Source: Halieaceae bacterium MED-G27
GTDB lineage: Bacteria > Pseudomonadota > Gammaproteobacteria > Pseudomonadales > Halieaceae
Direction of reading: 5' to 3'
DNA length: 62,248 nucleotides
Assembly: GCA_002456975.1 (NCBI GenBank)
Contig: NTKA01000006.1
Coordinates: forward strand, 1 to 62,248
Under the pieces are notes generated by a model. The model saw only the letters and a list, made by a program, of their open reading frames with translations, ran no database searches and was not told where the DNA came from. This document shows, in pieces, positions 1,018 to 61,354 of the stretch; position 1 is the stretch's first letter, and the number at the start of each line of letters is the position of its first letter. Made by a program: the position numbers and the translations under genes.

Positions 1018-3627
1018 ATGAGCAGTGCCAATCCGGCCGATGACATCAGTAACCTACGGGCTCACTTAAAGCGACGTGCTGAGGAGATCAACGCGTCATT
1101 TGACCCCAATCTCCCAGTCGACTCGCTACTGATCGAACGTTCTAATTCAGTCGACAAAGCGCTGCAAACTCTGTGGGCACTCTGCGATCTTGATAGCACA
1201 GACTCCAGCCTAGTAGCGGTAGGTGGTTATGGGCGCGGCGAACTGTTCCCCTACTCCGATGTCGACATCCTTATTTTACAGCCCAATAAGAGCACCACTA
1301 ACGATACAAAAGTATCTGCGTTTGTGAGCGCGCTATGGGACCTCGGACTCAAAATTGGGCACAGCGTTCGATCGATAGACGAATGTATCGATATCGCCCA
1401 GGGTGATCTGACTGTCATCACCACCTACCTCGAGACACGTGTGCTAGTTGGAGACCCCTCGCTACTAGACACCCTAAAACTCACGATCGAGCAGAGTAAT
1501 CTATGGCCCAGCGCCACCTTCTTCGCCGCCAAACGTGAAGAGCAGGAAACGCGTCACGACAAATATGGGCGGACCGGCTATAGCCTCGAGCCCAATGTTA
1601 AGTCGAGTCCCGGTGGCCTTCGGGATCTACAGGTCATTGGCTGGATTACCCAGCGGCATTTTGGCTGCTCGATCAATGAACTGCCCACGGGGGAGTTCCT
1701 GACGGTGGAAGAGCGCGGACAACTCGCCGCGGGCAAGGATTTTTTAAGTCGGGTTCGTGCAGCACTGCACATCATGACAGGTCGGGATGAAGACCGACTT
1801 CTGTTTGAACACCAGCGCTCGCTCGCCTCTCTATGGGGCTTCCAAGACGAGGCCAAGTTGGGCGTAGAACAATTCATGCAGCTCTACTTCCGTCAGGTGC
1901 AATCGGTAGTGCACCTGACAGATCTGCTAAATACAATTTTTGACCAGAAACTTCTCCACGATTGTGAGTCACGGCCCGTCATCATTGATGAAGATTTTGA
2001 ACTGATAGACCAGCGTATAGCAGCCAGACGCGACAATGTTTTTAGCGACAAGCCGGCCAATCTACTGCGCCTATTCGTCATCATTGCCAATGATGAGCGC
2101 ATTGCGAAAATAGACCCTCATACCATCCGCCTATTGCGACAATCAGCGCAACTCATCGACGACGATTACCGAAGCGATGAGGTTCATCGCCAGCTCTTCC
2201 GCGAAGTATTGAAAGGCCAGTTCTGGATGACAAAACAACTGCGGCGCATGTTGCGGCACGGCGTCCTAGCGCGCTACCTGCCCGAGTTCGGTCAGGTCGT
2301 AGGACAGATGCAATTCGACATGTTCCACACCTATACGGTGGATGCCCACACCATGGAAGTCATCGCGAATACGCGGCGTTTTCTTCGCGCAGACTATACC
2401 GATAAGTTCCCCGTAACCACGCGAATCGCGCAGCGTTTGAGAAACCCCCTACTGCTTTTTGTTGCGGCGCTGTATCACGATATTGGCAAGGGTCGTGGGG
2501 GCGATCACTCAGAACTAGGTGCCGTCGACGCTCGACTATTTTGTGAGCAGCACTTCTTCAACGAAGCCGACACCGAACTCATTGTCTGGCTGGTGAAAAA
2601 CCACCTGTTTATGAGCTCTTTTTCGCAGCGACGCGACATCTCTGATCCCGCTGAAATCCAGCAATTTGCTGAGATAGTCGGAACAGAAGAGCGCCTAAAC
2701 TACCTCTTCACATTAACGGTCGCCGACATTAACGGCACTAATCCTGATTTGTGGAACGCCTGGCGCAGTTCATTGCTTCGTCAGCTGTATACCGAGACCA
2801 GGCGTGCGCTTCGCCGCGGGCTCACCAATCCTATAGGCAGAGTCGAAGTCATTGATGCCACCCGCAAGTCGGCAGCCCAGCTTCTTGAAAACCGGGGATT
2901 CCTCGAGGATGACATCGAAGACATTTGGTCAGCGCGGGGCGATGACTACTTTTTGCGCGAGCAAGCGGAAGATATCGCCTGGCACACGGAAGCGATTGCC
3001 GATCACGGCGAGAGCGACGAACCATTGACCCTGGTGCGTCAGTCCTCGGAGTCACCCGTCGCCAACGCGACACAAATCTTTGTCCACGCCAAACAGATCG
3101 ACAACGTTTTTGCTCGAGTCTGCTCGAGCCTCGAGGTCCTAGATCTCAGCATTCAAGATGCGCGAATCTACTCGGGTACCGACGGCGCCACCCTGGATAC
3201 CTTCTTTGTATTGCGGGGCGATGGTAGCCCCATCGATGGCACAGCTGAAAACTTCCAACAAATAGCAGACGCCATTAATAAGTCACTGGCATCGACGCAT
3301 GTCGCTCAAAGCCAACAGCGAATAGCGCGGACTTTGCGCTCCTTTGCGTTGCCGACCGACATTAGCTTTTCGATGGACAAGGATCGACAACTCACTGTCA
3401 TGGAGTTATCGGCAGCTGATCGACCCGGATTGCTGGCTCAAATTGCCCTGGTGATTAGTCAGCACGATATCTCTATCCAAGCGGCGAAGATTCAGACCCT
3501 GGGCGAACGCGTGGAAGACATATTTTTCCTCAATACAGATGACAGTGGTGCGCTCTTGGATCCAGAGCTCTGCAAAACCCTGAAAGCCAATTTGTGCACT
3601 ACCATCGATGAGGGCTTAGCAGCGTGA
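1018..3627 (+). CDS. glnD: Bifunctional PII uridylyltransferase/uridylyl-removing enzyme
   Basis: Senses glutamine and uridylylates or deuridylylates the PII proteins GlnB/GlnK, setting nitrogen assimilation state. The 869 residues carry the full four-domain order. The nucleotidyltransferase motif GGYGRGELFPYSDVD lies at about 69-83, with catalytic D81 and D83. A GlnD-type linker follows, then an HD domain near residue 486 (YHDIGKG, HSELG). Two C-terminal ACT domains start near 685 (QIFVHAKQIDNVF) and 795 (VMELSAADRPGLLAQIA). Its stop overlaps the dapC GTG start by 4 bases, which suggests translational coupling. Confidence 0.97.
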   Translation: MSSANPADDISNLRAHLKRRAEEINASFDPNLPVDSLLIERSNSVDKALQTLWALCDLDSTDSSLVAVGGYGRGELFPYSDVDILILQPNKSTTNDTKVSAFVSALWDLGLKIGHSVRSIDECIDIAQGDLTVITTYLETRVLVGDPSLLDTLKLTIEQSNLWPSATFFAAKREEQETRHDKYGRTGYSLEPNVKSSPGGLRDLQVIGWITQRHFGCSINELPTGEFLTVEERGQLAAGKDFLSRVRAALHIMTGRDEDRLLFEHQRSLASLWGFQDEAKLGVEQFMQLYFRQVQSVVHLTDLLNTIFDQKLLHDCESRPVIIDEDFELIDQRIAARRDNVFSDKPANLLRLFVIIANDERIAKIDPHTIRLLRQSAQLIDDDYRSDEVHRQLFREVLKGQFWMTKQLRRMLRHGVLARYLPEFGQVVGQMQFDMFHTYTVDAHTMEVIANTRRFLRADYTDKFPVTTRIAQRLRNPLLLFVAALYHDIGKGRGGDHSELGAVDARLFCEQHFFNEADTELIVWLVKNHLFMSSFSQRRDISDPAEIQQFAEIVGTEERLNYLFTLTVADINGTNPDLWNAWRSSLLRQLYTETRRALRRGLTNPIGRVEVIDATRKSAAQLLENRGFLEDDIEDIWSARGDDYFLREQAEDIAWHTEAIADHGESDEPLTLVRQSSESPVANATQIFVHAKQIDNVFARVCSSLEVLDLSIQDARIYSGTDGATLDTFFVLRGDGSPIDGTAENFQQIADAINKSLASTHVAQSQQRIARTLRSFALPTDISFSMDKDRQLTVMELSAADRPGLLAQIALVISQHDISIQAAKIQTLGERVEDIFFLNTDDSGALLDPELCKTLKANLCTTIDEGLAA

Positions 3628-5919: not shown

Positions 5920-6933
5920 ATGAGTACTGGCCTACACGCATTTGGCTTGGGCATTGCGGAAACAAACAACCAGAACAACATCATTGATGTGTTTTTCCCA
6001 GACCCCATGGTCGATTTGGGTGCTGATGCGGCATCCGCTTTGAATGGTGTCTCAGGCATCGTGAACAGTGCTGAACTCGCTGACATCGCAGAAAACGCTC
6101 GCCAAGCTGGACTCGATGGAGTCTCCGCATTGGCCAGTCGTCTGAGTGATAGCGATAAATCGATTGTCGCGGTCAACCTGCAAGACAACGAGGCCCCCGG
6201 TTCGGTAGCCGAGGCCTATTTGAAGTTACATCTGCTATCGCATCGACGGGTCAGGCCCCACGGCACCAATCTCGATGGTATCTTCCAGTTATTACCTAAT
6301 GTAGCTTGGACCAGTGAAGGTGCGGTTGACCTACACGAACTTCCGGAGCGACAGCTTACCGCTCGACTACAGGGCCGCATAATCGAGGTCGCCAGCGTCG
6401 ACAAATTTCCAAAGATGACCAATTATGTGGTGCCGAACGGTGTTCGTATCGCCCACACAGCAAGGGTTCGCCTCGGTGCCTACCTTGGCGAGGGTACGAC
6501 CGTCATGCACGAGGGCTTTATCAACTTCAACGCTGGCGCAGAAGGTCCAAGTATGGTCGAGGGTCGTATCTCGGCAGGCGTGATGGTGGGCGCAGGATCT
6601 GACCTCGGCGGCGGTTGCTCAACCATGGGCACATTGTCCGGTGGCGGCAACATTATCATCTCCGTAGGCAGCGAATGCCTGATCGGCGCCAATGCAGGCC
6701 TAGGCATACCACTGGGTGATCGATGCACCATCGAAGCGGGGCTATTTGTCACCGCGGGTACCAAGGTCACTATCCTCGATGGTGCTCGTCGTCCCGTCGA
6801 AACCGTCTCGGCTCGAGACCTATCAGGACGCTCCGATCTGTTGTTCCGTCGTAACTCGACCTCGGGTGCAGTCGAGTGCCTGACCAATAAGTCTTCGATC
6901 GAACTCAATAACATGCTGCATGACAACAACTGA
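5920..6933 (+). CDS. dapD: Tetrahydrodipicolinate N-succinyltransferase
   Basis: Transfers succinyl from succinyl-CoA to tetrahydrodipicolinate, committing it to the succinylase branch of lysine synthesis. The 337 residues match the long Pseudomonas-type DapD rather than the about 275-residue E. coli enzyme. The C-terminal half is a left-handed beta-helix of hexapeptide repeats rich in Gly, for example VMVGAGSDLGGG, CLIGANAGLG and ALINISV-like turns. The start ATG immediately follows the upstream stop. The last 14 bases overlap dapE in a different frame, so the two are co-transcribed. Confidence 0.95.
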   Translation: MSTGLHAFGLGIAETNNQNNIIDVFFPDPMVDLGADAASALNGVSGIVNSAELADIAENARQAGLDGVSALASRLSDSDKSIVAVNLQDNEAPGSVAEAYLKLHLLSHRRVRPHGTNLDGIFQLLPNVAWTSEGAVDLHELPERQLTARLQGRIIEVASVDKFPKMTNYVVPNGVRIAHTARVRLGAYLGEGTTVMHEGFINFNAGAEGPSMVEGRISAGVMVGAGSDLGGGCSTMGTLSGGGNIIISVGSECLIGANAGLGIPLGDRCTIEAGLFVTAGTKVTILDGARRPVETVSARDLSGRSDLLFRRNSTSGAVECLTNKSSIELNNMLHDNN

Positions 6934-8068
6934 CTTATCGCAACCCTCGATCGAGCTAACCAAAACGCTGATCGCTCGCCCATCGGTCACACCAGATGAT
7001 CGAGGCTGCCAAGACATCATGAGCGAGCGTTTGCAGCGCTTGGGGTTCCAGTGCGAACAGCTTGATTGCGGCGGCGTTCAAAACCTCTGGGCAACCTGGG
7101 GCAGCAGCGGTCCTATGTTGGTCTTTGCGGGGCATACAGACGTGGTGCCGTCCGGCCCCCCAGAGCACTGGGAGAGCGACCCCTTCGAACCAACAATCCG
7201 AGGTGACTACCTATTTGGACGCGGCGCTGCCGATATGAAGTCCAGCCTAGCCGCAATGATCGTTGCCACCGAGCGCTTGTTAGCTGACGCCCCTCCACCG
7301 TGCGGGCAAATCGGTTTTCTGATCACGTCGGATGAAGAAGGCCCGGCAGAACATGGTACGCGATACGTTGTCGAGGAACTGCAAAAGCGGGGCGTTGATA
7401 TCGATTGGTGCATTGTCGGTGAGCCGTCCAGTAGCGACGTCTTGGGCGACACCATCAAAAACGGTCGCAGAGGCTCCATCAATGCAAGACTAGTGATCAA
7501 AGGAAAACAGGGACATGTGGCGTATCCGCACTTGGCTGATAACCCAATGCATCGCGCCTTTGCCGCTCTCGACGCGCTAACCAAGGTCGCTTGGGATCAA
7601 GGCAATGATCACTTTGACGCGACCTCGTTACAGTTTTCAAACATCCAATCGGGTACGGGCGCAAGCAACGTGATTCCCGGCGAACTCGTTGCCGATTTCA
7701 ACTTGCGGTTTTCCACGGAGATCACAGCGGATCAAATCAAGGAGCGCTGTGAGAACCTGTTGAGGGAGCATGCTATTGATTTCGAAATCACCTGGCGCTT
7801 AAGCGGGAACCCCTTCCTAACCCAACCCGGTGCGCTGGTCAGTGCCTGCCAAGACAGTATTCTCGAGCACACCGGAGTCACGACCGAGTTAAGCACCGGG
7901 GGCGGCACGTCGGATGGAAGATTTATCGCTACCACGGGTTGCCAGATTGTCGAATTGGGCGTGGTGAATCGATCGATTCATCAGCGAAATGAGCACGTGC
8001 TAATCTCAGATATTCCGAGGCTAACAGCGATCTATCAGGCCGTGATGCACCGTCTCCTCGCCGACTGA
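6920..8068 (+). CDS. dapE: Succinyl-diaminopimelate desuccinylase
   Basis: Zinc metallopeptidase (M20 family) that hydrolyses N-succinyl-LL-diaminopimelate to LL-DAP. The 382 residues show the expected order: H72 and D74 in FAGHTDVVPSGP, bridging D105 in GAADMKSS, catalytic Glu in TSDEEGPAEHG (E139/E140), a third Glu in GEPSSSD, and the C-terminal His in NRSIHQRNEHV. It closes the glnD-dapC-nth-spx-dapD-dapE run. dapA lies about 5.6 kb away on the minus strand. Confidence 0.96.
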   Translation: MTTTDLSQPSIELTKTLIARPSVTPDDRGCQDIMSERLQRLGFQCEQLDCGGVQNLWATWGSSGPMLVFAGHTDVVPSGPPEHWESDPFEPTIRGDYLFGRGAADMKSSLAAMIVATERLLADAPPPCGQIGFLITSDEEGPAEHGTRYVVEELQKRGVDIDWCIVGEPSSSDVLGDTIKNGRRGSINARLVIKGKQGHVAYPHLADNPMHRAFAALDALTKVAWDQGNDHFDATSLQFSNIQSGTGASNVIPGELVADFNLRFSTEITADQIKERCENLLREHAIDFEITWRLSGNPFLTQPGALVSACQDSILEHTGVTTELSTGGGTSDGRFIATTGCQIVELGVVNRSIHQRNEHVLISDIPRLTAIYQAVMHRLLAD

Positions 8069-28645: not shown

Positions 28646-30283
28646 ATGACATCGCGCAAAATTCTCGTGACCTCCGCTCTACCCTATGCCAACGGGCCTT
28701 TGCACCTTGGCCATATGCTCGAGCAGATTCAAACTGACATCTGGGCCCGATTCCAACGGAGTCGCGGTCATCACTGCCGCTATATTTGTGCAGATGACGC
28801 TCACGGCACAGCGATCATGCTGTCGGCAGAGGCTCAAGGCCGCACCCCTGAGGCGCACATTGCCGATATCCAAGTGCACCACCAGTCCGACTCCGAGGGG
28901 TTTTTGGTTTTTTTCGACAACTACCACTCGACCCATGCCGATGAAAACCTGAAGTGGTCAGAGAAGATCTTCACCACCCTTGAGCAGAACGGCCATATCG
29001 CCATTCGCAGCGTGATTCAGGCTTTCGATGAAGAGAAAGGTCTGTTTCTGGCCGACCGGTTCATCAAGGGTAATTGCCCGCGCTGTAAAGCGCCCGATCA
29101 GTACGGGGATAATTGTGAAGCCTGTGGTGCGACGTACTCACCCATGGAACTGATTGATGCGGTATCGGCGCTGTCGGGAACACAGCCTGTCGAAAAAGCG
29201 TCGGACCACCTGTTCTTCACCCTAAGTGCCTTTCATGATCTGCTGGATGGCTGGGTGTCTGCCGACAACCTGCAGCCCGCAGTGGCCAACAAGCTAAGAG
29301 AATGGATTGATGCAGGTCTTCAGGACTGGGATATCAGCAGAGACGCGCCCTATTTTGGCTTCGAGATACCCGGCCACCCCGGCAAATATTTCTATGTCTG
29401 GCTCGATGCACCGATCGGCTACATCGCCAGCCATCAGAACTTCTGTGAGCGAAGCGGCGATGACTTTGATAGCTATTGGCAGTCAGGATCCGACGCCGAG
29501 CTCTACCACTTTATTGGCAAAGATATCATTAACTTTCATGGATTGTTCTGGCCGGCCATGTTGTGGAGTGCGGGCCTGCGATTACCGACCGCCATCTATG
29601 CTCATGGATTCCTAACCGTCGATGGCACCAAGATGTCGAAGAGTCGCGGCACGTTCATCATGGCCTCGACCTATCTCGAGCACTTGAATCCAGAGTACCT
29701 ACGCTACTACTTTGCAGCAAAACTGGGTTCGGGTGTCGATGACATCGATTTAAATCTCGAGGACTTCGTTCAGCGCGTAAACTCTGATCTTGTCGGCAAG
29801 GTGGTCAACATCGCTAGCCGCTGCGCTGGCTTCCTGCGCAAAAAGTTTGATAACCAACTCAGCGTCGACTGCTCAGAGCCCGAACTGATCGGCGAGCTGA
29901 TGGCGGCCGGAGACGGCATTGCCGCGCTTTATGAGGCGAGAGATTTCCAACGTGCAATGCGCGACATCATTGCGCTGGCCGATCGCGCTAATCAGTACAT
30001 CGACGACAAAAAGCCCTGGGTCATGGCCAAAGAAGAGGGCCAAGAACAAGCGGTTCAAGACGCCTGCTCGGTCGGCATCAACTGCTTCCGCGTACTCATG
30101 ACCTACTTAAAACCAGTCCTCCCGGCGATGGCGGAGAAGTCCGAGCAGTTCCTCAATGTGTCGCTGGATTGGGCCTTGCTCGATGCGCCCCTGGAGGCAC
30201 ATACCATCAGTGACTTCAGCCCCTTGATACAGCGTGTAGATCCGGCTTCGATCGACGCTATGGTCGAGGCAAGCAAGGCGTAA
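28646..30283 (+). CDS. metG: Methionyl-tRNA synthetase, short form
   Basis: Charges tRNA-Met. The class I signatures are PLHLGHM (HIGH-like, near residue 18) and KMSKS (near 332), and the zinc-binding knuckle [18 protein letters not shown] is near 144-161. At 545 residues it stops after the anticodon-binding helical domain. The C-terminal EMAPII-like tRNA-binding/dimerisation domain of the 677-residue E. coli enzyme is missing, and no separate fragment follows, so the enzyme is probably monomeric. The end aligns with a natural domain boundary, so this does not look like a truncation. Confidence 0.95.
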
Positions 30284-47124: not shown

Positions 47125-48645
47125 TTAACTCGCTGAAGCAGGCACCCAGGTTGCATGAAATCCACCCGGGACACGCTGCGGGAGCTTTACTTTAGCAACG
47201 GGCCCCTGCTCGATATCGGTGGCGTCAAACACTAGAAAATACGACGACCAATCACGGGTGTCGGTCACGATGTTGACGACATAACCATCGTCCTCGGGGT
47301 CTTGCGAATTAGCGCCTACTTTAGGGGCATACACGGCTTCGCTACCCAAGACGCCATCGCCATAATCCCATTGCCAGCGCTCCCCCGTCTCGTTGTCATA
47401 TTTCACAAGCCCGGTAAATCGGAGCGTATGACCACCCTCTTCCAGCGTCGGGATACGTTGGTGATAGGCGTAGCGACCCTTGATGCCCGCGTAGAGCGGA
47501 TTGGTCTTATTGAACTCGGTGTTCAAGTCATCGATATCCTCTTCACGCACCTCGCCGGTGACTAGATTGAAGCGCCACCGATAGTTATTCGCCTCAAGGC
47601 GCATATAAGCCAGCATGTGCGACAGTTCGCCCTCGTCCCCAAGTACTGACGGCATTGGATTGACCGAGCGGCAGCCATCCATGATGAGCCAGTCACCCTC
47701 TTCCCAGCAATTGGATACGTGCAGGATGTAGCAGGGCTCGCAATCGAACCAGCGGATCGTCTTTGACTCACCAAAGCGCGGAATCACACCAAATCGAGTC
47801 GGTATATCGCGATGGAAAGTCAGTACCCGCATCTTGTGCTTTTGAAGAACGTTCAGATCGTGGAAAAACGGCAGGTCATGGAGGATTGTGTGGTTGCGGG
47901 TAAAGCCAATGTCATGAGGTAAACGCGCACCGGGCAGATCGATAGGCACTTCGTGCACCACCTCGCCTTTGGCATTGGCAACGCCATAGGTCATGTAGGG
48001 CGGCGTGTCGTTATAATCGAAATACAGCAACTCACCCGTCGCCCAATCAACTTTGGAGTGCGCGGACATCTTGGTGTCACCACGTCCATCGAGTCGAAAA
48101 CTACCTTTGGTGGCGAGTGTCTGTGGGTCGAGCGCCACTGGATTGCCCGCGTTGTACCAGAGACTAACTAGTTCGCCGTTCAGTGCAAATAAATCTGTAT
48201 TACTGGTGTCTTTGATACCAAACTCAGACACCGAATAATCAAAGGGGCCCATGACACCGGGCGAGACTGAGGCGCCGGCGGCGCGTTCATCGATGAGCGC
48301 TGGCGTTTCAACTAAACGGTTAACGTATTGCGCCCCCGACTCACCCACGTGCAAGGCATGTACCATGCCATCGCCATCAAAGGGGTGATAACGACCGTTC
48401 GGTTCAAATACAGGGTTAGTGCCATTGCGGTAGTAACTGCCACGCAGATCGGCTGGGAGCTCGCCTTCCACTACCAAACCAGCGCCCTCGATTTCTCGGG
48501 TTGTTGGCGCATAAACACCGTGCAAGTAGGGGTTATCGTGGTTATAAATCCAACTAGGTGCGTCTTCAAAGACTGTCGTGTCGCCAAGGCATTTGTCGGA
48601 TATGGGGAAGACAGACTGCCGGCCTGGCTTTACTGGAGCATTCAT
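47125..48645 (-). CDS. Carotenoid oxygenase (RPE65/lignostilbene dioxygenase family)
   Basis: 506 residues from the ATG at 48645, chosen because GGAGG lies 10 bases upstream. A seven-bladed propeller enzyme cleaving a carotenoid or stilbene double bond with non-haem iron. The four His iron ligands are placed as KMSAHSKVDW, RLPHDIGFTRNH, CYILHVSNCWEEGD and the terminal GGFHATWVP. FDGDGMVHALH is the usual N-terminal signature. No carotenoid synthesis gene is in the window, so the substrate is open. Confidence 0.92.
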   Translation of the reverse strand: MNAPVKPGRQSVFPISDKCLGDTTVFEDAPSWIYNHDNPYLHGVYAPTTREIEGAGLVVEGELPADLRGSYYRNGTNPVFEPNGRYHPFDGDGMVHALHVGESGAQYVNRLVETPALIDERAAGASVSPGVMGPFDYSVSEFGIKDTSNTDLFALNGELVSLWYNAGNPVALDPQTLATKGSFRLDGRGDTKMSAHSKVDWATGELLYFDYNDTPPYMTYGVANAKGEVVHEVPIDLPGARLPHDIGFTRNHTILHDLPFFHDLNVLQKHKMRVLTFHRDIPTRFGVIPRFGESKTIRWFDCEPCYILHVSNCWEEGDWLIMDGCRSVNPMPSVLGDEGELSHMLAYMRLEANNYRWRFNLVTGEVREEDIDDLNTEFNKTNPLYAGIKGRYAYHQRIPTLEEGGHTLRFTGLVKYDNETGERWQWDYGDGVLGSEAVYAPKVGANSQDPEDDGYVVNIVTDTRDWSSYFLVFDATDIEQGPVAKVKLPQRVPGGFHATWVPASAS

Positions 48646-49005
48646 TTCAGTGCGCCCTCCAAGAACTAAGTTCACCGCGTGCATCATACGGAACTTCCGC
48701 TATCAGGATAACTTGCCTGGAGAAAAAATCCGCACATGGCACCGCCAATGGAGCTGGTGTCATAGACTATATGAGTACTGCTTGGACAACCCGTTCTTTA
48801 CCTGTCTTGTGAATGGTTTCAAGATATGGGGCAGGTATTCTTATGGAGGGAATACCAGTGGACGATAAGTTTCGTCGTCCAAAATTCCTTGTTGCGATGT
48901 TAGCTACTCGGCGCGCGATGCGGTAACGTAACCACCTCTTGACGTTGGCTGCAATGGTCGGAGCAGATGGTTACTGCCTGAAGGCTACGGTCAAACCGCT
49001 TTCAC
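48646..49005. other. 360-base stretch without a recognised gene
   Basis: Region upstream of the carotenoid oxygenase and downstream of the QIIG-repeat gene. The only structure I notice is a 7-base inverted repeat GGTATTC/GAATACC near 48835-48857. Short open frames here lack ribosome binding sites and family resemblance. Confidence 0.4.
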
Positions 49006-53878: not shown

Positions 53879-54799
53879 TTAACCGGGAGCTTTCCAACTC
53901 GACAAATCACGCCGAATCAAGGCCTCGAGCTCGACAACATCGCTGTGGAAAGAAGCATATAGCTCTCGCTCAAATTCTGCCGAAATAGCACGCCGTTTAG
54001 AACTAACCCTGAGCATTGATTTAACAGCGTCTATGATCCATGGACGTCTGAGTCGTGCCCATCGTCGGAACCTGAACATGGGCTCTTCCAAAAAGCGTGG
54101 AGGTCTCAGAATAAAGTCTGCAAACCATTCGAAGCGATGCTTGTGAGAGGGATTTACGACGGGGAATACAACTCGTCCGTCATCATGAAGGTCCAGAAAT
54201 TTAAGAACCTTTCGATAGACTTCTGCTGGGTCCTCCTTGAGGTCATCCAGAAGCAAAACCAGAACCTGCTCCGTTGGCACCACAGTCTGTAGCCTTTTAA
54301 TTTGCGGAGAAAATGTCGCAAGGTCCTGATACTGCAAAAACTGCTCAGCAACGCAGCTTCGCGGGATTCTCTGACCAGATTTTCGAGCGCTCTGCAATCG
54401 CCAAGCCGTCTCGAAATTCGGTTCATCCTCATTGCGTGCCCATACTTGTTCCATATGGTAAGCGTGAACCACCTGCACTGGGTTTCGGAGCATTACGATA
54501 AATTTGGCTTTTGGGTTGAGGCCGATCGCATTACTCACTGCGTTCTTCGACGCAAGGTAATTGGTAGAGCCCTCTCCGATGGATTGATGGATACGCGGAT
54601 CGGCGTCTTGAAACAACTTCAAATAATCATCCAGTTCTCGCAACAAATGCTGCTCTTTCAATTTTGGATAGTCATCGGAAAGATAAAACGGCTCTTTAGG
54701 CTCCGAGAAAAACACAGCGGGGTGTTCGCTTAAGTAGTGCCCCAGGGCTGTGGTTCCGCACTTAGGTGCGCCGATAATGAAAAAATTTGGCCTAATCAA
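53879..54799 (-). CDS. Sulfotransferase (Sulfotransfer_1 type)
   Basis: About 306 residues from TTG at 54799, where AGGTG lies 8 bases upstream; an outer TTG at 54883 would overlap the neighbour by 80 bases. No ATG is near the N-terminus. The 5'-phosphosulfate loop is FFIIGAPKCGTTAL and the 3'-phosphate motif is VMLRNPVQVVHAYH. This resembles heparan-sulfate-type enzymes that transfer sulfate from PAPS to a sugar hydroxyl. It is last of four minus-strand sulfotransferase genes. Confidence 0.87.
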   Translation of the reverse strand: MIRPNFFIIGAPKCGTTALGHYLSEHPAVFFSEPKEPFYLSDDYPKLKEQHLLRELDDYLKLFQDADPRIHQSIGEGSTNYLASKNAVSNAIGLNPKAKFIVMLRNPVQVVHAYHMEQVWARNEDEPNFETAWRLQSARKSGQRIPRSCVAEQFLQYQDLATFSPQIKRLQTVVPTEQVLVLLLDDLKEDPAEVYRKVLKFLDLHDDGRVVFPVVNPSHKHRFEWFADFILRPPRFLEEPMFRFRRWARLRRPWIIDAVKSMLRVSSKRRAISAEFERELYASFHSDVVELEALIRRDLSSWKAPG

Positions 54800-54803
54800 T
54801 TGC

Positions 54804-55820
54804 TTAGCACCTATCGATCCTAGTTCGCCATGCTTGCCTGATACGATAGAAAACTTTGGCGGGGCGCTTGGGTAATAAGGCAAGCCAATGCATCGTCGTT
54901 TTGAAATAGTGGACCGCCCGTCTTTTACGACTCAGGAGACGTAAATTTGCGACTGCTTTTTGGATCTCCTGCTCAGTTTTGTTCACTGAAAAGTAAGGGG
55001 CGTATCCTGCAGACGTCAAACTATCGCCCAGCAACGCTTCTATTGCCATCCCAGTATGTTCCGCGAGTTCAAATTTCCAGCTATCGCTACGATTGCTGTC
55101 CGCACTCGCATTTGCTCTGGGATGAAGATTGCTCTCTAACGCCGATAAGTTAAGCCCAGCAGATTCGGATTGACGCACGCCGAAGTGACGTTCGATAAGT
55201 CCAGTCGCATAAGCGTCGTCACTTACAAGCTTTTCGAATAATACTTTGACAGCCTGGCTGCTCCTCTGATCGCGTAGGCGCAACGACGCCAATCGGTACT
55301 GCTTCCATTCGTCAAGCGCGCGCAGCGGGTCTCCGCCAGCCATGGCCCCCCCGTAGGAATACACTGTTTTAGTGGTCGACATTGAATTAACCACACCTCG
55401 AGGATCTCGCAGTACCTCTATCAAATTTGCATCGGGGAACACGTCAAGTAGCTCAGTCATTTGATAAATAAGACGCCCATTTTTTACTAAAAAGTGAGAG
55501 CCAGTGGTTCCATGAGTTCGCCGGTAAGCCTCGAGCACGCCACAGAACACAGCCCTTCGCCCGCGACCCGACAACTCTTGGGCTAGTAATTGCTGCTGCT
55601 CCAAACAGAATCCCAAATTGTCAAACTGGATGTCTTGTGAAAATAACCTCTGCAAACCATTAGGCGACAGGGCCATACACTGCGCTTCGGTCATGCCCAA
55701 AAGCATCTGCGGCAAACGAAATTCAGGAAGCACAACAACATTCTCCGCCCACTTAGCTACCTGGCTAGCAAAAAACGTGGAGCCCGAGCGAGCACAATAG
55801 AGTAAGAAGCTAATCTTCAA
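54804..55820 (-). CDS. Sulfotransferase (Sulfotransfer_3 type)
   Basis: 338 residues beginning MKISFLLYCARSGSTFFASQVA, so the PAPS loop is at the very N-terminus (ARSGST). The 3'-phosphate motif is IEVLRDPRGVVNSMS near residue 135. The C-terminal part is unlike the other three sulfotransferases. No signal peptide: it acts in the cytosol on nucleotide- or lipid-linked sugars. It lies 64 bases downstream of the next sulfotransferase gene in the block. Confidence 0.85.
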   Translation of the reverse strand: MKISFLLYCARSGSTFFASQVAKWAENVVVLPEFRLPQMLLGMTEAQCMALSPNGLQRLFSQDIQFDNLGFCLEQQQLLAQELSGRGRRAVFCGVLEAYRRTHGTTGSHFLVKNGRLIYQMTELLDVFPDANLIEVLRDPRGVVNSMSTTKTVYSYGGAMAGGDPLRALDEWKQYRLASLRLRDQRSSQAVKVLFEKLVSDDAYATGLIERHFGVRQSESAGLNLSALESNLHPRANASADSNRSDSWKFELAEHTGMAIEALLGDSLTSAGYAPYFSVNKTEQEIQKAVANLRLLSRKRRAVHYFKTTMHWLALLPKRPAKVFYRIRQAWRTRIDRC

Positions 55821-55884
55821 CGTTCTTCCAGTGAAACTTTCAATATCAAGATTTCATTCAGTTGCACCATCTAATCTAGGCGAC

Positions 55885-56832
55885 CTACAGATATCCATTA
55901 TGTTTTAAAAAGGTTTCGGCCCCGAACAAAGTTATCGCGCGTTCGTAAAATGCTTTTTGCTCCTGCTCTGACATAGTAAGGGGCTCCTTAGTCTTCCGGG
56001 ACTGAGCTGACGATCTGGATCGGATACTCGACCTTGCTGCCAGTTTAGCCGACCAGTTCGGATCCATGGCGGACAAAAACTCTAGCCCGGCGAAGTCGCC
56101 GTTCGCTAAGTCCTCGTATCGAATAATTGAAACGGCAGAGTCGTCTTTCTCGATTAAGGGAAACCATCGGATAAATAACGTGAGCATACGTCGCTGAAAT
56201 TCATTCCCAGATGCCAGAACGGTTTCACATAGTTCTAATGCCTCGCCGGGCAATCGTTTCCTGACCTCTGAGTGCGCCACACAATACGCCAGCTTTTCCT
56301 GTGTTCGAAAAAAGTTCATTTGTGACTTAATCGTATTCAGGGGGTGGCGAAGCAGGTAAAGATTTCTAGCTCCGTATCGGTTTGCATACCATGCGGAAAC
56401 CCAGGGCGTATTCGCCCACTTCGAAACAACTGAAACCGTACTTGCGCCCATTCCCGCTGAATCAAAATTGACACTGCCCCCACGCCGCAATGCAAATACG
56501 TCATCTAGATAATCAGCAGCCTCTTCCATTTCTGAGGCCGTGAAATATAAAGGCCGGAGCTCAAAACCATAGAGCTTTGCGTAGGCAAATCCGTTCCGCT
56601 CGATTAATGGGTCTTGGACAACAACGGTATTGCTCAGACCAGCTAGCATCTCAATTAGCCAAGTAGAACCAGATCTGGGCTCGAAGGTGATAACCACAGG
56701 CTGTAGCAACTCCGTAGCAGCCAAAAAACGAAGAAAACGTATTTCTTTAAGCGCTATCCGAGCCGTATTTTTGAGATACCAGTCAAACCCAGCGTTACCA
56801 AATGCAGATGTTTTGCTCTTTCTCCTGGACAT
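55885..56832 (-). CDS. Sulfotransferase family protein
   Basis: 315 residues. The PAPS loop is VITFEPRSGSTWLIEML near residue 47 and the 3'-phosphate motif is LYLLRHPLNTIKSQM near 168. The sequence is otherwise quite divergent from its neighbours. ATG at 56832. It follows the fourth gene of the block by a gap of 106 bases in which I see no gene. Confidence 0.82.
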   Translation of the reverse strand: MSRRKSKTSAFGNAGFDWYLKNTARIALKEIRFLRFLAATELLQPVVITFEPRSGSTWLIEMLAGLSNTVVVQDPLIERNGFAYAKLYGFELRPLYFTASEMEEAADYLDDVFALRRGGSVNFDSAGMGASTVSVVSKWANTPWVSAWYANRYGARNLYLLRHPLNTIKSQMNFFRTQEKLAYCVAHSEVRKRLPGEALELCETVLASGNEFQRRMLTLFIRWFPLIEKDDSAVSIIRYEDLANGDFAGLEFLSAMDPNWSAKLAARSSIRSRSSAQSRKTKEPLTMSEQEQKAFYERAITLFGAETFLKHNGYL

Positions 56833-56938
56833 AGGCTTTAGACCGCGTTTCGAGACCTGATATAGCGCATGCCAGATCGAAACGAGCCCCAGATGGAGGT
56901 GACTTCGAGACCAGAAATCATGAGAATCCTGGGAAGAT

Positions 56939-57652
56939 TCATCGAATCAATTCGTCCATTGACGACGCCTTTGGGTAATTCCCCCCAACAAACCATCGTT
57001 GGTATTTCCCATTTACAATGCGGAGAGAGGCCTCCGTAAAATAATCGCTGATTTTCAATCTGCTGGACTTGCGAGAGCGTTGCTTGAGAGATGGCATCTC
57101 GCCAGCATCGATTCGATTTTTCAGGCTGCAAAGATCCAGCCGATCTGCCAAATCTCTCAAATCGGTGACTAATTCTTCAAACCTGATTACTGCATCCACC
57201 CGATTACTGCCCTGCACATCGAAATATATATTTTGATTTGAATTTTTTTTCACGCTTTTCAAAAATAGTTGCTTCAATCGATCAGGGTTGCGCTGATGAA
57301 CTTCCAAAGCCTGCTCGACCGACAAATACTTTTGATGAAAAAACGAGACTGCCGCGTCATAAGGATCCCTAACCGAGGCTACAACCAGACAACGCTCAAA
57401 CTGATCTTTACCAAGCCGGTTATAAATCGCCTGCAACGGCATATGATTATAAAAACGGCACCACGGGGGCCGCCACTTACCCCGAAAACCTACTATGCCC
57501 GAGGGCGTGATGATCTCTCGAGTCGAATGTGCAGAGTGCTGCAGTTCCGATTTATCCACGCAAAAATCCTGCAGCAGAACCTCAATGGTGGTCCCTGCAG
57601 TTTTTTTTGTTTTAACAAATATGAATCGATGCTCTTTTGACCACAGCATCAT
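56939..57652 (-). CDS. Sulfotransferase (Sulfotransfer_2-like)
   Basis: 237 residues from the ATG at 57652, chosen because AAAGGG lies 5-6 bases upstream; the TTG at 57709 is less likely. The PAPS loop is FIFVKTKKTAGTTIEVLL and the 3'-phosphate motif is VVASVRDPYDAAVSFFHQKY. This KT-x-GTT pattern is the one found in carbohydrate 2-O-sulfotransferase-like proteins. It is the first of the four after the flippase gene. Confidence 0.85.
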   Translation of the reverse strand: MMLWSKEHRFIFVKTKKTAGTTIEVLLQDFCVDKSELQHSAHSTREIITPSGIVGFRGKWRPPWCRFYNHMPLQAIYNRLGKDQFERCLVVASVRDPYDAAVSFFHQKYLSVEQALEVHQRNPDRLKQLFLKSVKKNSNQNIYFDVQGSNRVDAVIRFEELVTDLRDLADRLDLCSLKNRIDAGEMPSLKQRSRKSSRLKISDYFTEASLRIVNGKYQRWFVGGNYPKASSMDELIR

Positions 57653-57751
57653 TGCTGCCCTTTCACAAGCGAATATGGGGTAACCCAGGGTTTGATTTGC
57701 GAACCACAACGTCAGACAACCAGGGCCGCGCCCAGTCTACTAAAAATCGAC

Positions 57752-59068
57752 TCAACGAGACAGGCGCAAAAGCGCGGTGATGGTCGTGTTGATTCCGACA
57801 CGCCGCCAAGCCAAGTATGCTGCCAGTGAGGCCGTCGCGGCGAGCTCGAACGCCACCGATACTGCGGCACCCCTTGCGCCAAACAAAGCAGTCATCGGAA
57901 TTAAAAGCGCTAGCGCTAGTCCACTGGTAACCAGTGATAGTCGCAAGAACAGTTCTTCCTGATTCATCATTTGAAGCACCGCACTCGCAGGCCCAACCAA
58001 GACCTTCAACAAATAACCCGTTGCGAGAATCAACAAAAGCTCATTTCCTAAAGAAAAGTCAGGTGAAAAAAATCCCAAAATATCTGAACCAGCGAACCAA
58101 AATATAGCGATCAAAGCGATAGCAATAAAGCTCGAAAATGTTGTAATCACTGAACATATAACCGAAGCCTCGGCCGTGTTCTTCCGCTCGAAAGCTCTAG
58201 ATAAAAGCGGCCTGCATAAAATATTAGCGCCCACGGTCACAAGATTTACCGCGATCGCTAGTCGAAATGCTGCAAAATACTGGGCAGCACTCTCCACTGA
58301 TAAGTAAATGCCAACCAACACCACCGCTAAGTTGGCTGTTGCCGCTCTGACTAGGCTTGTCGACCAGAAAGCTCGCGCAGCCCTATTCCATGTTGGCGTC
58401 ACTCCCTTTATCGAAGCACCGACCCCCAGTCGCGCGCCCTTTAGACTTGGCTCCAACGCCCATTGCGAGAGACCTCCTAACGCCAAGACCACCGCCATGA
58501 ATAGGATCAGCTCTGTAGCGGTAGAGATCGATAACACCTGTATTATTGCAGCGCCGAAAATGGCCAACGAGGCCAGATGCCACAAAACGTCGCGCAACAG
58601 CAATGCGGCGAGTATTCGACCAAAGCCTCTCAACACATGCGCTTGAAACTCGACTAGGGCGAGCACTATTGCCAACCCGACAGTAGCAATAGCAAGGTTT
58701 GGCGATAAGTGCCCAAGATCGAATCGTGACAGCAGCAAATAAAGCAGGCCTAGCGAGACCACGCCCCCAAACACAAGAGTGTATCCTCGGCCAATGAGTT
58801 GAGCCGCTAACTCTCCGTCTCCCCGCTCTTGATAGACGGGAACAAATTTTAGCATTAAGAGTCGTTGACCGAGGCTTCCTCCCAACACGAGTAATGTAGC
58901 GGTGCTAAACGCAATACCAAAGAAGCCAAACTGGGTCGAGTCCAACACGCGAGCCGCCAACAAAAAGGTCACAAAAGACAGCCCAGCCGCCGCCGCCTTC
59001 AGGCCGAGCGCGACAATACTGCCGCTGATTACTGTCTGGACGATGCCGAGTTGTGGTGCGTCGGTCAT
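57752..59068 (-). CDS. Polysaccharide flippase, Wzx/MATE-like
   Basis: 438-residue membrane protein with about twelve to fourteen hydrophobic segments and the general layout of the polysaccharide transport family (MVF/Wzx): an N-terminal GSIVALGLKAAAAGLSFVTFLLAARV and repeated Gly/Ala-rich helices. It would flip lipid-linked repeat units across the inner membrane. It is upstream of the sulfotransferases and downstream of the gmd/rmlB chimera on the same strand. Confidence 0.86.
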   Translation of the reverse strand: MTDAPQLGIVQTVISGSIVALGLKAAAAGLSFVTFLLAARVLDSTQFGFFGIAFSTATLLVLGGSLGQRLLMLKFVPVYQERGDGELAAQLIGRGYTLVFGGVVSLGLLYLLLSRFDLGHLSPNLAIATVGLAIVLALVEFQAHVLRGFGRILAALLLRDVLWHLASLAIFGAAIIQVLSISTATELILFMAVVLALGGLSQWALEPSLKGARLGVGASIKGVTPTWNRAARAFWSTSLVRAATANLAVVLVGIYLSVESAAQYFAAFRLAIAVNLVTVGANILCRPLLSRAFERKNTAEASVICSVITTFSSFIAIALIAIFWFAGSDILGFFSPDFSLGNELLLILATGYLLKVLVGPASAVLQMMNQEELFLRLSLVTSGLALALLIPMTALFGARGAAVSVAFELAATASLAAYLAWRRVGINTTITALLRLSR

Positions 59069-59382
59069 TGACTTATAACCTTAGTAGAGCGCTTATTTTG
59101 TGGGCGAGACTTTTCAAAGCTAATTACATCTCACGATGTCTGTTAACAAACCCCACCAAGCTGTTAATGGACCTCGCCCGTATTGTCACGGTCGGCTCAT
59201 TTGCCAAATAAGTTTGACAACTTCTGAGCCCTAAGAATTGCATTCTCGGATATCGTAACCAGGTATAGCTTTGTTGTAAGGGTCGCAGCGGCACACTAAG
59301 TCTACTCGATGAACTAGCCACTCGAATTCGACGAAGCACGTTTCCTAACTGGCGAGAGGAATGCCTTAGCAGAAGCTGCGAT
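59069..59382. other. 314-base gap between the chimera and the flippase gene
   Basis: No gene seen. An 88-codon open frame (59124-59390, minus) overlaps the rmlB end and lacks a ribosome binding site and any family resemblance. The gap may hold the promoter for the flippase-sulfotransferase operon. Confidence 0.35.
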
Positions 59383-60494
59383 TTATTCACGGTTAACCAT
59401 GCTTTTTATTGAGCGTAGAACCTTGTCCTGCCACCAATCTCGGTTCGATATGTACCACTCCACCGTTTTACGTAGACCGGACTCAAACGTTTCTTCAGGC
59501 ACCCAGCCGAGGTCTTTCTCGATCTTTGAGGCGTCAATAGCGTAACGCACATCGTGGCCCGGACGATCATCAACGAATTTGATGAGGTCGCGATAGCTTT
59601 GCGGTTTGCCCTCATTCATTGGCACCAAGTCATCTAATACATCACAAATTGCGTGTACAACATCGATGTTTCGCTTTTCATTGCGCCCACCAATGTTGTA
59701 CGTCTCACTCAATCTACCCGTGATCGCTGCAGCTACCAATGCACGCACATGATCCTCTACAAAGAGCCAGTCCCTAATCTGATCACCCCGACCATAAACT
59801 GGGATTTGCTTTCCCTCTAGTGCATTAATAATCGTCAATGGGATGAGTTTTTCGGGATGATGATAAGGGCCGTAGTTATTTGAACAATTAGTTATCACCA
59901 GTGGCAGCCCGAAAGTGCGACCCGACGCGGTGACTCGTGGTTAAACAATATGCCATTGCATGCATACATGCCGTAAGCCTCGCGATAATTAACAGCGATC
60001 CAATAGGCATAAAGCTTAGCAACGCCGTAAGGAGAGCGAGGATGAAACGGTGTGGTTTCCTTCTGCGGGGTTTCCTGTACCAATCCATAGAGCTCTGATG
60101 TCGATGCCTGGTAAAACTTAGTTTTCTGCTCAAGACCGAGAAAACGAATCGCTTCCAGTAGCCGCAGCGTCCCGATCGCATCAACATCAGCCGTGTATTC
60201 AGGCGCTTCAAAACTCACCGCCACATGACTTTGTGCGCCGAGGTTGTAAACCTCGTCGGGCTCAATCTCTGACAGCAAACGAGTTAGATTTGATGTGTAA
60301 CTGAGATCACCGTAGTGAAGCTTAAACTGCGCGTTATCAACGTTAGTATCTTCGTAAATATGGTCTACACGCGCTGTATTAAACAGTGAAGAACGGCGCT
60401 TAATGCCGTGTACCTCATAACCTTTATCGAGCAGAAACTCAGCAAGATACGACCCGTCCTGCCCAGTTATCCCCGTAATTAATGCTTTCTTCAT
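59383..60494 (-). pseudogene. Broken gmd'-'rmlB chimera
   Basis: Two sugar-nucleotide dehydratase halves joined out of frame. From the ATG at 60494, residues 1 to about 191 are GDP-mannose 4,6-dehydratase (Gmd): [37 protein letters not shown] with the YxxxK pair, ending [11 protein letters not shown]. The frame then runs eight residues (VALSGCHW) to TGA at 59895. From about 59919 downward, in another frame, the sequence is dTDP-glucose 4,6-dehydratase (RmlB): [20 protein letters not shown], then [16 protein letters not shown], to a normal RmlB end. The join lies in CGTCGGGTCGC, with GGG shared by both parents. GTG at 59898 overlaps the TGA and could restart translation, but neither half is a complete enzyme. 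Confidence 0.85.
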
Positions 60495-60706: not shown

Positions 60707-61354
60707 TCAATCCGCGTTAAGCCGAACATCGAACGCCACGATGTTGTTAGGGGTTAACAGCCCTAGCTCGAGACACACCGTATAGAAGCTCGTGACAGAA
60801 AAGTCTCCAATTTCTTCGCTGGTATGCACAAGCGTTAGCTCATTACACAGTTGCCCAAGTGCCGCTTTGGAGACCTCCTGCAATAGTGCAAAAGAACGGT
60901 AGTAATCCGCCAGAGGTGGCTTATCCAGGTGCTCGCGGCTTTTGTTCTTCTCAGCAAGCAATGTGTCTACTGCCGTCTCGATCAGCAACACTGTGCCCGG
61001 ATGATCCTCCTCTAAGCGCTCAACGAGTTGAGAGTAACGCGCCTCCATGACTACATTGTCGCGATCTGCATTGGGTGCGTGGTAGCTCGCTATGTCTTCA
61101 TCTAAGACGATCAACCCGCGCTCTAGACCGAGTTCGGTCGCAACCAGGGGGGTGATAGCTGAAATACCCCGTGGCTCAAGGGGATCGCCCTGAACGATAA
61201 GTAATGGCGGCTTCGATGGCGGGTGCAGTCGCCAGTGTGATTGAACTGACTCCACAACGTCCTGAGCTACGCGCTTGGGATCACGCGTATCGTAGCCACC
61301 CATACCCTCGACAAACAGTGGATGATGATGCTCGAATCGTTTCATGGGTGTCAT
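60707..61354 (-). CDS. Uncharacterised protein between the glycan locus and the rRNA operon
   Basis: 215 residues, cytosolic, no signal or membrane segment. It starts MTPMKRFEHHHPLFVEGMGG (an ATG three codons later is possible) and shows an alternating strand/helix pattern (PPLLIVQGDP, RGLIVLDEDIA, GTVLLIETAVD) that suggests an alpha/beta fold, but no family motif is recognised. No ribosome binding site is convincing. It is isolated from neighbours by 150 to 350 bases on either side. Confidence 0.6.
   Translation of the reverse strand: MTPMKRFEHHHPLFVEGMGGYDTRDPKRVAQDVVESVQSHWRLHPPSKPPLLIVQGDPLEPRGISAITPLVATELGLERGLIVLDEDIASYHAPNADRDNVVMEARYSQLVERLEEDHPGTVLLIETAVDTLLAEKNKSREHLDKPPLADYYRSFALLQEVSKAALGQLCNELTLVHTSEEIGDFSVTSFYTVCLELGLLTPNNIVAFDVRLNAD

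Follow-up and report, generated by a model that had tools for sequence, protein, structure and literature searches.

Deletion scars with short microhomology arise in bacteria by illegitimate recombination or by alternative end-joining. The locus described here resembles such scars in having few shared bases at a join from which the intervening DNA is missing, but differs in that its 3 bp lie near the chance level. The closest gene arrangement is the gmd-fcl-rmlA-rmlC-rmlD-rmlB cluster of the congener G074, which has the same end genes, strand and order, and a gmd that is 91% identical to our gmd half. The G074 cluster is intact, however, it lies between other flanking genes, and its rmlB is only 69% identical to ours. 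Compared by junction layout, chimeric junctions produced in multiple displacement amplification (MDA), as described in one study (PMC1855051), likewise join segments less than 10 kb apart through short shared bases. Our join is in direct orientation, whereas direct joins of segments less than 10 kb apart form the rarest class in that study (11 of 475). We analyzed a stretch of 62,248 nucleotides, hereafter the window, which is the whole of contig 56 of the 2.02 Mb draft genome of Halieaceae bacterium MED-G27 (68 contigs, 75% complete). Overall, the gmd–rmlB join that it contains is probably an ordinary deletion scar.

On the minus strand, the junction letters are CCGCGTCGGGTCGCACTTTCGGG. Past CGTCGGG, the reading switches from gmd to rmlB, and the rmlB part ends at position 59383. 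The 5′ part of gmd (59922–60494, minus strand), comprising codons 1–191, was assigned by its match to TIGR01472 and its amino acid identity to the G074 gmd. The 3′ part of rmlB (59383–59922, minus strand), which starts at about residue 174 of 353 in G074 numbering, was assigned by its match to TIGR01181 and by 69% amino acid identity over the matched part to the RmlB proteins of both G074 and G006. The two parts meet at a GGG (59921–59923, minus strand) with their frames off by one, and both are open, without any stop codon. The gmd frame encodes 199 amino acids, from the ATG at 60494 to the TGA at 59895–59897. According to the ORF reading, this TGA overlaps a possible GTG start of the rmlB frame at 59898, within a GTGA (59895–59898, minus strand); in RmlB, this GTG encodes an internal valine. 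The out-of-frame state of the halves hinges on the length of one G run, the kind of spot that some sequencing methods miscount. An 88-codon ORF (59124–59390), without a Pfam match, overlaps the rmlB stop at its start, and is possibly a remnant or a chance ORF.

The first-pass annotation had described a Gmd that breaks off after its first half and is fused, out of frame, to the second half of an RmlB, with a GTGA overlap and with the strand that precedes the Gmd and RmlB motifs present twice, and our analysis bears out each of these points. The gmd half matches positions 1–191 of the 342 in TIGR01472 (GDP-mannose 4,6-dehydratase, Gmd), and the rmlB half matches positions 162–319 of the 321 in TIGR01181 (dTDP-glucose 4,6-dehydratase, RmlB). 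The overlap is real at the TGA and GTG positions given above. The duplicated strand follows from the alignment of residues 175–191 of the G074 Gmd with residues 178–194 of its RmlB, given that the RmlB part of the window begins at about residue 174. Neither half covers a whole family profile or reaches the score of a whole-protein member (351 bits against a cut-off of 415 for Gmd, and 238 against 365.1 for RmlB); the intact G074 genes encode a Gmd of 372 codons and an RmlB of 353 residues. As a control, NCBIfam profiles were run on 38 of the window's 63 other ORFs, and 21 of the 38 exceeded a cut-off. Twenty of these span 90% or more of such a profile without interruption, and the remaining one (TIGR00697) matched in two stretches. 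No second half-length gene was seen among the scanned ORFs, of which the 17 below the cut-offs cannot be judged in this way. The MetG ORF (28646–30283) matches 529 of the 530 positions of TIGR00398, but only positions 3–544 of the 676 in NF001100, with the C-terminal part missing.

The strongest indication of how the join arose comes from gene order in the genus. Contig C27 of G074, an assembly that is 58% complete, carries intact gmd (2225–3343), fcl, rmlA, rmlC, rmlD and rmlB (6697–7758) genes, all co-directional on one strand. The points equivalent to the window junction lie 4,421 bp apart in this contig, and the arrangement in the window is that of G074 minus its middle, with four genes missing entirely and gmd and rmlB each missing the half that faces them. 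An intact parental arrangement, as expected for a deletion scar, is thus present in a relative, although in only one of the nine genomes with a gmd over the TIGR01472 cut-off in the genus set (57 genomes, our own included). Among the matches listed for these nine, G074 is the only one with an rmlB over the cut-off close by on the same strand. The first reading had proposed a deletion of two enzymes at once, to be proven by sister strains with an intact gmd and rmlB and with genes between them. The G074 cluster backs the deletion and supplies the intervening genes, but the loss had been understated, since fcl, rmlA, rmlC and rmlD would go as well, together with the halves of gmd and rmlB. Moreover, G074 is no sister strain and its flanks differ; when the window ORFs were compared with 20 kb of its contig, only the two halves found a match. 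The gene order of G006 differs as well, and no sister strain with the intact arrangement between the same flanks was found. On a wider scale, 10 of 80 gmd loci (L021–L100) also carry an RmlB of at least 50% identity within the stretch, which extends up to 10 kb on each side. Three of these have gmd before rmlB on the same strand (L030, L085 and L098), three have the reversed order (L027, L049 and L099), and four have the genes on opposite strands (L031, L033, L053 and L074). The parental order therefore recurs among the 80 gmd loci without being general. None of six loci chosen among the 30 best RmlB matches, all six outside the genus, contained gmd in the stretch.

The bases shared at the join contribute less. 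The GGG is read directly from the window, as described earlier, while its presence in both lost parents is probable from the comparison of the relatives' gmd and rmlB genes. At the Arg-Gly point, CGGGG occurs in 17 of 86 distinct gmd sites of relatives, one of the 17 being CGTCGGGG, and at the corresponding rmlB point TGGGG occurs in 9 of 37 distinct sites, two of the nine, G006 among them, being TGGGGTCGC. If the parents were of the CGGGG and TGGGG types, each would carry four G and the product three. The gmd of G074 has CGTCGAGG at the same point, without the four G. Four G in a parental gmd is a minority state among the relatives and is absent from G074, which slightly weakens the case for the deletion. 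In random joins between the G074 gmd and rmlB, three or more shared bases occur in 5.4% of cases, and about three are observed; at a chance of 0.054, such microhomology lends little support to any mechanism. The exact 31-base junction was found in 4 of the 197 loci compared, all copies of the window, and in no other locus, and the junction letters had no exact match in viral_contigs.

The two halves have different relationships. In a quick-mode tree of 88 rows, the gmd half pairs with the G074 gmd (SH-aLRT 84) and has a short end branch (0.082). Over all aligned positions, the rmlB half shares 65% identity with G074 and 69% with G006, as against 76% between these two, and its best identity (74%) is to a genome of another family. 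Its end branch is long (0.67) and lies in an unresolved part of a tree whose bootstrap had not settled. Because of this tree position, the long branch and the closest match in another family, the rmlB side of the deletion argument rests on gene order rather than on phylogeny. The rmlB half has evolved faster than its relatives with the frame kept, which fits relaxed selection or a fast lineage.

The gmd half shows no decay: with G010 as the third sequence, it has 7 private residues, as against 6 in G074, whereas a surplus would be expected had it long escaped selection. Given that neither half holds a stop and that the gmd half is undecayed, the event should be either recent or an artefact; by a rough hand estimate, it would be younger than about 2% neutral change. 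With a conservation threshold of 95%, departures were counted at 4 of 139 columns in the gmd half, which ranks 4 among 88 rows, and at 3 of 62 columns in the rmlB half, which ranks 2 among 62 rows. Lowering the threshold to 90% gave 6 of 147 (rank 3) for gmd and 4 of 77 (rank 8) for rmlB. Rows were dropped from this test if they were duplicates, more than 99% identical to the window, stop-holding, shorter than about 88% of the query, or below 60% (gmd) or 45% (rmlB) identity. We considered early decay as the cause of these somewhat high departures, but did not accept it, since the gmd departure H51N is also present in G074 and the rmlB departures fit the long branch. The dS values were saturated, and dN/dS was therefore not usable.

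A search for intact gmd and rmlB elsewhere in the genome had been suggested as a check on the first reading, and in the 75% complete assembly it yielded no second gmd over the cut-off and, among the matches listed, no second rmlB over the cut-off. The same assembly gave no rmlC match, no rmlA or rmlD over the cut-off, and only remote fcl matches (25–28%), while the same searches found fcl, rmlA, rmlC and rmlD in G074 as a positive control. A DNA search of the genome with the middle stretch of G074, run without a positive control, returned nothing, so the argument relies on the family-level searches. As the assembly is 75% complete, these absences are weak and only suggest that gmd, rmlB, fcl, rmlA, rmlC and rmlD are gone from the rest of the genome.

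The neighboring genes identify the setting. The next sizeable gene downstream (57752–59068, minus strand) encodes a Wzx-type polysaccharide flippase (PF01943, 28.6 bits against a cut-off of 28.2), and it is followed by four ORFs (53879–57709, minus strand), two matching sulfotransferase families and two without a Pfam match. The locus thus carries the flippase, at least two sulfotransferases and two glycosyltransferase-like genes that score below the cut-offs, and the sulfotransferase ORFs suggest a sulfated surface polysaccharide. Upstream of gmd lies a conserved gene (60707–61354, minus strand) without a Pfam match, present in 19 of the 57 genus genomes, our own included. In G006, a single contig, homologues of this gene and of the dioxygenase-like gene at 47125–48687 adjoin rmlB and glycosyltransferase-like genes, and the gene order at this polysaccharide locus differs from that of the window. 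The locus seems to be a site of frequent gene exchange, where such losses would be expected. In another single-contig genome, G077, a decayed gmd-like copy, fragmented and interrupted by stops (L143, 17619–18561; G077:C1:1232622–1233561) lies about 4 kb from an intact gmd.

Judged from the assembled sequence, the join is probably best explained by a recent, real deletion within one cluster. The parent would have carried co-directional gmd-fcl-rmlA-rmlC-rmlD-rmlB genes in a polysaccharide locus. Illegitimate recombination at two points sharing about three bases would have removed about 4.4 kb, so that gmd breaks off after its first half and continues, out of frame, as the second half of rmlB. 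The two enzymes would thereby be lost, as would the locus-encoded pathways to GDP-fucose-type and dTDP-rhamnose sugars. The G074-like parent, the occurrence of the event within the cell and the repair mechanism are what we infer from these comparisons; a benefit, such as escape from phages, is speculation. The GC3 values of the halves are 0.482 and 0.477, compared with 0.482–0.540 for eight other genes of the locus and 0.591–0.656 for four genes outside it. Since order and orientation are kept and the composition is common to both halves, we favor a real deletion over a random mis-join. Counting against it, the rmlB half has no particular affinity to that of G074, the halves differ in branch length, which one simultaneous loss alone would not produce, and the parental order is shown by a single congener.

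Another possibility, which we regard as unlikely but worth weighing, is that the join is an artefact, arising from a chimeric molecule in library preparation or amplification or from bridging during assembly, and that the cell itself keeps the two stretches apart and intact. The undecayed gmd half is what would be expected for such an intact gene, the genome is a draft in 68 contigs, and about 2.3 kb separate the junction from the contig end at 62248. In addition, such joins in gmd probably occur in assemblies of this kind, since a gmd-family gene of the congener G021 (L112, 1357–2565; G021:C35) runs into foreign-looking DNA. Past its first part, the reading frame carries on into asparagine-rich, low-complexity sequence ending in a membrane segment at the C-terminus, a tail that we take to resemble a eukaryotic SNARE-like protein, and this join is itself probably artefactual. 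However, the stretches joined in the window are cluster neighbors with equal order and orientation in G074, they are alike in composition, and the 3′ half of gmd, the 5′ half of rmlB and the middle genes were not found over the cut-offs on other contigs of the assembly. An MDA chimera would have to belong to the rarest class of the study cited above (PMC1855051). The form in which an artefact had first been proposed, an assembly join between two similar genes, fares poorly as worded, although other artefacts are possible: the Gmd and RmlB of G074 are 27% identical, and about three shared bases fall far below the k-mer overlap that an assembler needs to bridge two stretches.

It is improbable that the join marks a recombination edge, at which gmd and rmlB parts from two polysaccharide clusters were brought together by non-homologous exchange. 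The halves do differ in evolutionary rate and in closest relatives, and the gene order at the locus varies among G006, G074 and the window, but the halves are alike in composition, and a single deletion within a cluster like that of G074 is the simpler route to the same order and orientation. A working hybrid dehydratase that combines the cofactor domain of Gmd with the sugar-binding domain of RmlB, made as a GTGA-coupled pair, or as one chain if the G run is miscounted, is very improbable: both parts are open and conserved and the GTGA overlap is present, but a strand is present twice, each half falls short of its family profile, the GTG is an internal codon, no such pair was seen among the matches listed in the 56 other genus genomes, and the exact junction is absent from viral_contigs. 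A literature search for a gmd/rmlB hybrid or truncation found none, and nothing points to a new enzyme.

To conclude, this locus is mainly useful for illustrating to what extent a deletion scar and a chimeric join can be distinguished with assembled sequence. If the deletion is real, a single recent event has stripped two deoxysugar pathways from a surface-polysaccharide locus, and it would represent ordinary gene loss, one of the usual ways in which bacteria alter their surface.
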